Source: Planctomycetota bacterium
GTDB lineage: Bacteria; Planctomycetota; UBA1135; GCA-002686595
Assembly (NCBI GenBank): GCA_028823395.1
Contig: JAPKBO010000009.1
Coordinates: 1 to 39,840 of the forward strand
Reading direction: 5' to 3'
Length of the DNA: 39,840 nt
A program made the position numbers and the translations under genes. This document shows positions 32,895 to 34,515 of this stretch, piece after piece; position 1 is the stretch's first letter; every line of letters begins with the position of its first letter. Below the pieces are notes generated by a model. The model ran no database searches. It was not told the origin of the DNA and saw nothing but the letters and a program-made list of their open reading frames with translations.

Positions 32895-33085
32895 TCCCCT
32901 GTCCGTTCTGCGGAAGCGCCAAGAGCCTTGAGGTGACGAAGTACCGCTTCTTCGCGGTGCGCTGTGAGGGGTGTTTGATTGACGGCCCCACAGCAGAGTC
33001 GAGGAAAGAGGCCGTGTTGAACTGGAACACGCGGCGGTACGCACAGATCAACGAACCGCGCGAGAAAGAGGAGTTGAGAGGATGA
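32891..33085 (+). CDS. Lar-like zinc protein (restriction-alleviation family)
   Basis: A 64-residue protein starting from GTG that overlaps the upstream TGA (GTGA). CPFCGS (near the N-terminus), RCEGC and GP, and LNWNTR at the end match the Lar/Rac-type family pattern (CPFCG...C..C....GP......A...WN.R). Family knowledge: Lar of the Rac prophage reduces EcoKI restriction, although many members are simply zinc ribbons of unknown role. The neighbouring methyltransferase suits an anti-restriction context. Confidence 0.75.
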   Translation: MIPCPFCGSAKSLEVTKYRFFAVRCEGCLIDGPTAESRKEAVLNWNTRRYAQINEPREKEELRG

Positions 33086-33297
33086 ACCACACCGTCTGCC
33101 CCGAGTGCCGCGAAGCCATCAAGCGCGAAAAAGCCGCTTACAACCGCGCCCGCCGTAAGAACCCCGGCGTCCGTGAACGCGAACTGGCGCGTGAACGCGC
33201 ACGGTATCACGACATGAAAGAGAACCGCCCCGAGGAGTTCTACCAGATGCGTGCGCGGCGGGCGGAACTGAAGGCTGCGCAGAAGGCGGGGCTCTAG
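33082..33297 (+). CDS. Small basic protein with a zinc-type start
   Basis: A 71-residue protein (MNHTVCPECREAIKREKAAY...). One CPEC pair near the N-terminus, then a long, highly charged helix (Arg, Lys, Glu). ATG overlaps the previous stop (ATGA). Perhaps a nucleic-acid-binding accessory protein; unrecognised. Confidence 0.65.
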   Translation: MNHTVCPECREAIKREKAAYNRARRKNPGVRERELARERARYHDMKENRPEEFYQMRARRAELKAAQKAGL

Positions 33298-34515
33298 GTG
33301 TGGATCCTTTCAACTGCATATCCGTCTGCGCCGGCATCGGTGGCCTTGACCTGGGAGTCCGACGAGCGGTTCCAAATGCTCGAACGGTCTGCTACCTGGA
33401 GAGGGAAGCCTTCGCCTGCGAAGTCCTGGCAGCGCAGGGTGAAGCCGGGAACCTGGATAGCGCGCCTGTGTTCACGGATCTGCGAGTCTTCGACGGCGCA
33501 GCGTGGCGTGGACAAGTGGATCTCATCTTTGGCGGCATCCCGTGCCAGCCGCACTCCGTTGCAGGTAAGCAACTCCGAGGCGAAGACGAGCGCGACCTCA
33601 TCGACGACTTCCTTCGTGTCGTTGGCGACGTGGGACCGAGCCTCGTCTTCGTGGAGAACGTCCGCGGCTTCGTTTCCGGGGATGGGCTTGGACGACTGCT
33701 TGGAGGACTGGCCGACCTCGGGTTCGATGCGGAGTGGACGACTCTGCGCGCGTCCGAAGTCGGCGCGCCACACAGGCGGGAGCGATGCTTCGTCCTGGCT
33801 TACGCCTCGCACCTTCGAGGTGCTGGAATCCTCGGAAAACTTCACGAAGCGGATGGGGGATCGCCCCCTGGGGGCCCACGCGAGTCTTCAGTCACAGGCG
33901 GTGGTGTGGCCTACAACGACAGTGGGCGACAGTGTCGGCAGCGCGCGGCACACGACGACAACGGGCGTGATGCACAGCGGGACAACGCTGACGGATGCGA
34001 TTCGAGGATGGAGCACGCCGAACGCCCGCGACTGGAAGGGGCCCCCGGGTCAGGGCTCAACGGAGAGGGGGGGACGGGGGGGGAGTCTCCCTCGGGACGC
34101 GGCCGGGGTGCCCCTGACGGTAGCCGCGACGAGCTGGAAGACCCCTCGAGCGAAGTTCGACTCGGGAGCACACCGACAGTCGGAGGACAGCCTGCACTCG
34201 CAGGCGAAGGGCTGGAACACCCCCGGAGCGAACGACTGGAAGGGCAGCAGCAAGCCGGGACAGCGCCGAGGCCAACTGGACGAGCAGGTGGAGAATGGCC
34301 CCAGCCCTGGCCCCCCGCCCCCGGAGACGCCGCCGAGTGGGCTCGCATCCTCGCCCAATACCCCGGCCTCGCCCCTGCGCTTGAACCCGACCTTCGTCGA
34401 GTGGCTGATGGGCCTTCCTCGCGGGTGGACCGCCTTAGAGCCCTCGGTAACGCAGTCGTGCCCGCCCAGGCCACCGCGGCTCTCACCGATCTCCTTGGGA
34501 GGATCGGATGACTAG
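33298..34515 (+). CDS. Overprinted reading frame inside the methyltransferase gene
   Basis: Open for 405 codons in another frame of the methyltransferase. From about codon 95 it looks like a real phage protein: SNSEAKTSATSS, WDRASSSWRTSAASFPG, then CLEDWPTSGSMRSGRL, repeated Trp-x-Thr-Pro units (WLTP, WPTT, WSTPNARDWKG at codon 238, WKTPRAK, WNTPGANDWKG at 306), and LNPTFVEWLMGLPRGWT at 362-378. I recognise this layout from proteins in many phage methyltransferase loci. The true start is unknown (GTG at 33298 is the first possible; TTG/GTG codons occur nearer the recognisable part). GC-rich DNA often has long chance frames, but repeated motifs argue against chance. Function unknown. Confidence 0.5.
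   Translation: MWILSTAYPSAPASVALTWESDERFQMLERSATWRGKPSPAKSWQRRVKPGTWIARLCSRICESSTAQRGVDKWISSLAASRASRTPLQVSNSEAKTSATSSTTSFVSLATWDRASSSWRTSAASFPGMGLDDCLEDWPTSGSMRSGRLCARPKSARHTGGSDASSWLTPRTFEVLESSENFTKRMGDRPLGAHASLQSQAVVWPTTTVGDSVGSARHTTTTGVMHSGTTLTDAIRGWSTPNARDWKGPPGQGSTERGGRGGSLPRDAAGVPLTVAATSWKTPRAKFDSGAHRQSEDSLHSQAKGWNTPGANDWKGSSKPGQRRGQLDEQVENGPSPGPPPPETPPSGLASSPNTPASPLRLNPTFVEWLMGLPRGWTALEPSVTQSCPPRPPRLSPISLGGSDD
33300..34511 (+). CDS. C5-cytosine DNA methyltransferase
   Basis: A 403-residue protein with the C5-methyltransferase motifs in order: I (SVCAGIGGLDLGV, residues 8-20), IV (GGIPCQPHS with catalytic Cys82), VI (FVENVRGF, Glu119, Asn120), VIII (APHRRERCF, 156-164; His replaces the usual Gln) and X (RLRALGNAVVP, 378-388). 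It would methylate cytosine C5 in a short site, protecting phage DNA from restriction or marking it. Residues about 170-360 are Gly/Pro/Arg/Glu-rich and lack clear fold, matching a variable target-recognition region. The start is GTG at 33300. The same bases are open in a second frame, described separately. Confidence 0.9.
   Translation: MDPFNCISVCAGIGGLDLGVRRAVPNARTVCYLEREAFACEVLAAQGEAGNLDSAPVFTDLRVFDGAAWRGQVDLIFGGIPCQPHSVAGKQLRGEDERDLIDDFLRVVGDVGPSLVFVENVRGFVSGDGLGRLLGGLADLGFDAEWTTLRASEVGAPHRRERCFVLAYASHLRGAGILGKLHEADGGSPPGGPRESSVTGGGVAYNDSGRQCRQRAAHDDNGRDAQRDNADGCDSRMEHAERPRLEGAPGSGLNGEGGTGGESPSGRGRGAPDGSRDELEDPSSEVRLGSTPTVGGQPALAGEGLEHPRSERLEGQQQAGTAPRPTGRAGGEWPQPWPPAPGDAAEWARILAQYPGLAPALEPDLRRVADGPSSRVDRLRALGNAVVPAQATAALTDLLGRIG

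Follow-up and report, generated by a model that had tools for sequence, protein, structure and literature searches.

In M.EcoHK31I (YGGCCR), the gene for the smaller subunit lies inside that for the larger one, in a different reading frame. According to the passages of PMC3404938 that deal with these enzymes, M.AquI and M.EcoHK31I consist of two polypeptides each. The larger subunit of M.EcoHK31I carries motifs I-VIII and X and the predicted recognition domain, and the smaller one carries motif IX only; M.AquI is split between motifs VIII and IX, so that its smaller subunit holds IX and X (PMC3404938). One bacterial enzyme has been described with the nested two-polypeptide layout, which appears to be common in phages; its breadth there is new here. 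A full-text literature search, with subscription papers mostly outside it, returned no paper on such a nested gene in phages, and PMC4014571 does not mention one.

The window, that is the whole stretch of 39,840 nucleotides analyzed, has a GC content of 67% and belongs to a phage-like contig encoding a terminase large subunit, a head-tail adaptor, exonuclease VIII, a primosomal protein and a PAPS reductase. In one of its loci, two overlapping genes, alpha (frame A) and beta (frame B), probably specify a C5-cytosine DNA methyltransferase made of two polypeptides. A first-pass annotation had drawn attention to two plus-strand frames open for more than 400 codons over the same bases; both are there, B with 405 aa and A with 403 aa. 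The features of the locus are as follows.

33281-33291, plus strand: purine-rich AGAAGGCGGGG upstream of both GTGs, by its sequence a possible common ribosome-binding site
33298-34515, plus strand: frame B, putative beta, +1 frame, open over its full length, 405 aa, from a GTG adjoining A's GTG (phrog_1008; openness in relatives against expectation)
33300-34511, plus strand: frame A, putative alpha, 403 aa from a GTG, a C5-methyltransferase that carries motifs I-VIII and X (PF00145, phrog_363, invariant residues)
33531-33566, plus strand: GGIPCQPHSVAG of A, which we take to be motif IV (invariant P81 and C82)
33648-33662, plus strand: motif VI of A, FVENV, where the B reading is the WRTS region (invariant E119; sequence)
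33759-33803, plus strand: motif VIII of A, VGAPHRRERCFVLA (invariant R160 and R162)
33790-34377, plus strand: recognition region, which gives Trp-x-Thr-Pro repeats in frame B and a hydrophilic linker in frame A
34381-34428, plus strand: motif IX in frame B, LNPTFVEWLMGLPRGW (residue conservation; B-phase entropy and substitution)
34431-34472, plus strand: motif X in frame A, RLRALGNAVVPAQA (A-phase substitution; G383 invariant, N384 at least 90%)

The GTG starts of A and B overlap as GTGTG, and the GTG of B lies directly 3' of the TAG that ends the ORF at 33082-33297. A G7-AC-G8 homopolymer tract at 34067-34083, within the recognition region, is a possible slippage site that could alter the downstream frame.

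By its motifs I, IV (PC), VI (ENV), VIII and X, A is a C5-cytosine methyltransferase. It matched PF00145 (E 3.4e-29, residues 4-171), phrog_363 (1.6e-55) and M.HhaI (3e-11), and the residues P81, C82, E119, R160 and R162 are invariant among 58 relatives. Motif IX is not in A's frame; the best motif IX match sits in the +1 frame and is under B-phase constraint.

B itself matched no Pfam family. Its match to phrog_1008, 'DNA methyltransferase' (2.7e-27), was shared by all 60 B relatives scanned; since this family covers most of B's length but A at motif X only, it seems to have been made from +1-frame proteins. Scanned against NCBIfam and Pfam, 60 B proteins yielded no more than weak hits for single members, and neither B by itself nor the B family found a PDB sequence match up to E = 10. 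One B ORF in the B-family alignment also matched HNH endonuclease families and perhaps carries an inserted homing endonuclease, and the genome of locus L109 contains a second B-like ORF of 360 aa with an LNPTWVGWLMG motif.

The motifs of B are +1 readings of A: WRTS lies over VENV, the stretch with WPTSGSMRSG covers the one with LADLGFDAEW, and LNPTFVEWLMGLPRGW of B overlies EPDLRRVADGPSSRV of A. Within motif IX of B, M371 is invariant in 60 relatives and L362, P364, W369, L370, G372, P374 and W377 are conserved in at least 90%. Profile comparison aligned residues 236-381 of B to single-frame phage methyltransferases (97.9% probability, E 4.4e-13); the B family did not align to the A family. 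Single-frame enzymes such as L035, L066, L073, L097 and L103 carry Pro-Thr-Pro repeats and an LxPxFVEWMMGxPxGW-like segment in frame with I-VIII and X, and the motif profile built from these peptides also selected LTPLEMERLQGFPDHW in L094 and L095, which we take to have the classical motif IX form. Because B aligns to the single-frame enzymes and the motif IX profile picks the classical form, the C-terminal half of B is, judged by its sequence, the target-recognition region and motif IX of C5-methyltransferases. The N-terminal half has no counterpart in single-frame enzymes.

The structure predicted for frame B is of low confidence (pLDDT 54) and poor except at motif IX and a short stretch near residues 111-120, as might be expected of a part folding on its partner. 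For the single-frame relative L066, the catalytic, IX and X parts were predicted confidently and the repeat region with low confidence, and the model aligned to M.HhaI chain 2i9k_A (Z 22.8, rmsd 3.6, 235 residues).

The peptides that the first-pass annotation quoted for the second frame are present in B, and the WLMGLPRGW segment indeed ends where motif X of A begins (LNPTFVEWLMGLPRGW at 34381-34428, RLRALGNAVVP from 34431), because IX and X adjoin in the enzyme but use different frames. The second frame, for which a phage-protein layout was proposed, is not an unrelated protein: by homology, B carries the recognition region of the same enzyme together with its motif IX. Overprinting in the variable recognition region, also proposed, holds in that both frames are open and constrained in relatives, but the overlap covers the whole gene.

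Open frames were compared with expectation. Shuffling A's synonymous codons in the window gave 2.8 expected stops in the +1 frame against none seen (P = 0.028), and shuffling B's codons gave 8.2 expected A-frame stops against one seen, A's own terminator (P = 0.0012). Over motifs IV-VIII the window alone is uninformative (0 B stops seen, 0.58 expected). In the GC-rich window by itself, the case for B above chance is moderate; the family-wide stop depletion is decisive. Over IV-VIII of 117 distinct +1 loci (a set without the K1G-like group, all of which the motif IV pattern missed; start mapping, with another pattern, counted 75), 21 B stops were found where 165 were expected, compared with 459 and 487 in the third frame. 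Both frames were thereby tested for constraint in aligned relatives, as the first-pass annotation had proposed: B stops are depleted, and the substitution phase switches along the gene. A second frame broken by stops while the first is kept, which that annotation had set against its own proposal, is not the usual pattern, as 105 of the 117 loci have no B stop over IV-VIII (28 expected). The opposite was seen in L003 and L006: 14 and 10 stops, respectively, interrupt A across the recognition region, and B remains open.

Across the recognition region, B is open in 116 of the 117 loci. Given B, A-frame stops there number 95 against 414 expected, and A is open in 103 of 116 loci. In single-frame controls the deficit of stops is only mild (49 against 65.5). 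Relatives of about 46-52% GC (L001, L003, L006 and L016) also hold B open beyond expectation. In single-frame enzymes, the +1 frame is not open over IV and VI (3% and 6% stops per codon). In the Paenibacillus-phage-like set, the rate of B stops runs from 5.6% per codon to 0 and then to 7.8% along the gene, and A3 entropy is 1.61 in block I, 1.00-1.08 from IV to VIII and 1.53 in X. A synonymous-shuffle test of pairwise B similarity was set aside and is not relied on, because the third frame and the single-frame controls also exceeded the null. In the IX-X part (23 pairs), B scored higher than the third frame in this test, with a z of at least 2 in most pairs and below 2 in a few, against a z below 2 in most for the third frame.

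The substitution pattern indicates which frame is constrained in each region. In 73 independent pairs, the recognition region and IX show most substitution at A1 (B3); I-III, IV-VIII and X show most at A3. Sign tests on 74 independent pairs (A1>A3 versus the reverse) gave 50 vs 12 for the recognition region, 49 vs 7 for IX, 6 vs 59 for X and 1 vs 31 for I-III, and in 13 single-frame control pairs IX substitution peaks at A3 (A1>A3 in 0 vs 12). Such evolutionary evidence for a recognition region in beta is new here; in the window-like subset (25 pairs), IX gave 16 vs 1 and the recognition region 11 vs 8 (P 0.65), without a significant phase preference. Entropies of the IX block at B phases 1/2/3 were.85/.82/1.26 in window-like loci (n=32),.64/.66/1.31 in Paenibacillus-phage-like loci (n=62) and.50/.64/.87 in K1G-like loci (n=78), a B-phase pattern like that of single-frame enzymes (.74/.68/1.24, n=36). 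The drop of A3 substitution from I-III to IV-VIII is no proof of dual coding, since single-frame controls show it as well (.388 to.274). The entropy, stop-rate and substitution sets were confined to distinct loci in which a motif anchor was clear and to pairs within the identity range.

B stops cease at a fixed point, which differs between groups. K1G-like loci (n=75) have it some 40 codons ahead of motif IV, Paenibacillus-phage-like loci (n=62) about 10 to 20 codons ahead of that motif, and window-like loci (n=27) at roughly the start of A itself. At the first ATG in frame B downstream of its last stop, a Shine-Dalgarno-like word was found in 34 of 45 Paenibacillus-phage-like loci (17% at other B codons) and in 42 of 69 K1G-like loci (13% at other B codons). 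In these two phage groups B has an ATG of its own, usually with a Shine-Dalgarno-like site.

Among 241 distinct loci, the frame of motif IX relative to I-VIII was +1 in 198, 0 in 37, +2 in 2 and weak in 4; before duplicate removal the motif IX profile matched the +1 frame in 233 of 279. The loci were retrieved with queries that were already nested (window B, window A, K1G A and Shelly A), so the +1 shares are no estimate of prevalence. For the 60 distinct loci retrieved by window A alone, the frame was 0 in 30, +1 in 26, +2 in 1 and weak in 3. In L013 and L019, IX and X are still +1 apart and the frame relative to I-VIII is altered, as if by an extra indel between VIII and IX. In eight relatives, the ORF that holds I-VIII terminates, and a second ORF in the +1 frame holds the recognition region together with IX and X. 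In L003:2994-4265 and L006:3009-4127, the A ORF stops after motif VIII, B is open and a separate A-frame ORF with an ATG carries X, perhaps a three-piece enzyme. The relatives form a series: a single ORF, a pair of ORFs divided ahead of the recognition region, nested alpha and beta, and the possible three-piece form of L003 and L006. For Shelly, Jacopo, Lily and K1G, GenBank already lists a nested CDS, which carries the remark 'internal gene' in two of them; in L105:2993-4159 and L106:2978-4093 the GenBank CDS is the B frame (one named cytosine-specific methyltransferase) and the A-frame CDS is unlisted.

Three other explanations of the second frame were weighed. That B is not translated and results from high GC together with the conserved residues of A fits the window taken alone, with its P of 0.028 at 67% GC, and a third frame that also lies above the synonymous-shuffle null; the openness of B in the relatives of lower GC, the B-frame phase of the IX block, and L003 and L006, where B is open over an A frame full of stops, already largely contradict it and leave it the least probable of all. 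Only slightly more credit is due to B as a translated overprinted protein with its own function outside the enzyme, for example a regulator or a counter-defence factor. The N-terminal half, which single-frame enzymes lack, and the want of a Pfam or NCBIfam family for B suit such a protein, but the C-terminal half is that of a methyltransferase, A has no in-frame motif IX, and split relatives hold X in the same ORF.

Programmed frameshifting, in which one polypeptide would run from A into B for the recognition region and IX and back to A for X, is improbable, if a little less so. It accounts for the constraint on the recognition region and IX in B and on I-VIII and X in A, and the single-frame relatives carry the same motif order in one ORF. 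However, two shifts of opposite direction would be needed; B is depleted of stops over IV-VIII, upstream of any shift site, from fixed starts with Shine-Dalgarno-like sites; and a shifting ribosome would have no need of the open A frame that 103 of 116 loci keep across the recognition region. The reading as two polypeptides rests on the dual constraint, the constrained frame by region, the motif content, the homology of B and its own starts in two groups. Under this two-polypeptide reading, frame A would yield alpha, a large catalytic domain (I-VIII, X) with a long hydrophilic linker in place of the recognition domain, and frame B, from its separate start at the adjacent GTG, would yield beta, with a part overprinted on I-VIII followed by the recognition region and IX. 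The two would assemble as one enzyme in which beta takes the place of the small domain; we infer translation of B in the window phage, this assembly and the activity.

The overlap is complete over about 400 codons, both frames are selected across relatives and the products look like halves of one enzyme, so that overprinting and subunit splitting are combined in one gene. It is fairly likely that many phages encode both methyltransferase halves in two frames of one stretch, with the DNA-reading half in +1. If so, the specificity of many phage cytosine methyltransferases could not be read from the annotated protein, and the recognition region of many 'ordinary' ones would have been placed in the wrong frame. 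Existing annotations already use one frame or the other, B being the CDS in two GenBank phages. One-piece, split and nested relatives offer a natural set for studying the splitting of enzymes and the origin of overprinted genes.

Among known systems, the single-frame phage C5-methyltransferases (L035, L066, L073, L097 and L103) share the type of recognition region and motif IX with B; they differ in that one ORF holds all motifs and +1 is not open over IV and VI. Paenibacillus phages Shelly and Lily ('internal gene') and Escherichia phage K1G likewise have a +1 CDS inside a cytosine methyltransferase gene, but B starts inside A there and at A's start in the window, and the records state no mechanism. 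With M.AquI, as far as its published outline goes, eight relatives share the split into two polypeptides between VIII and IX, whereas its smaller subunit has IX and X and the window has X in frame A under A-phase constraint. The closest likeness is to M.EcoHK31I, compared by the layout in the published passages and not by sequence: I-VIII and X lie in the larger subunit and IX in the smaller. As in that enzyme, the smaller gene is nested in another frame; the window's B, in +1, spans the whole of A, which sets it apart. The predicted recognition domain is placed in the larger subunit of M.EcoHK31I in those passages, whereas substitution over the whole +1 set places the recognition region in B here, with no significant preference in the window-like subset. 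Because the layout fits except for this apparent location of the recognition region, we count the window as being of the M.EcoHK31I type.
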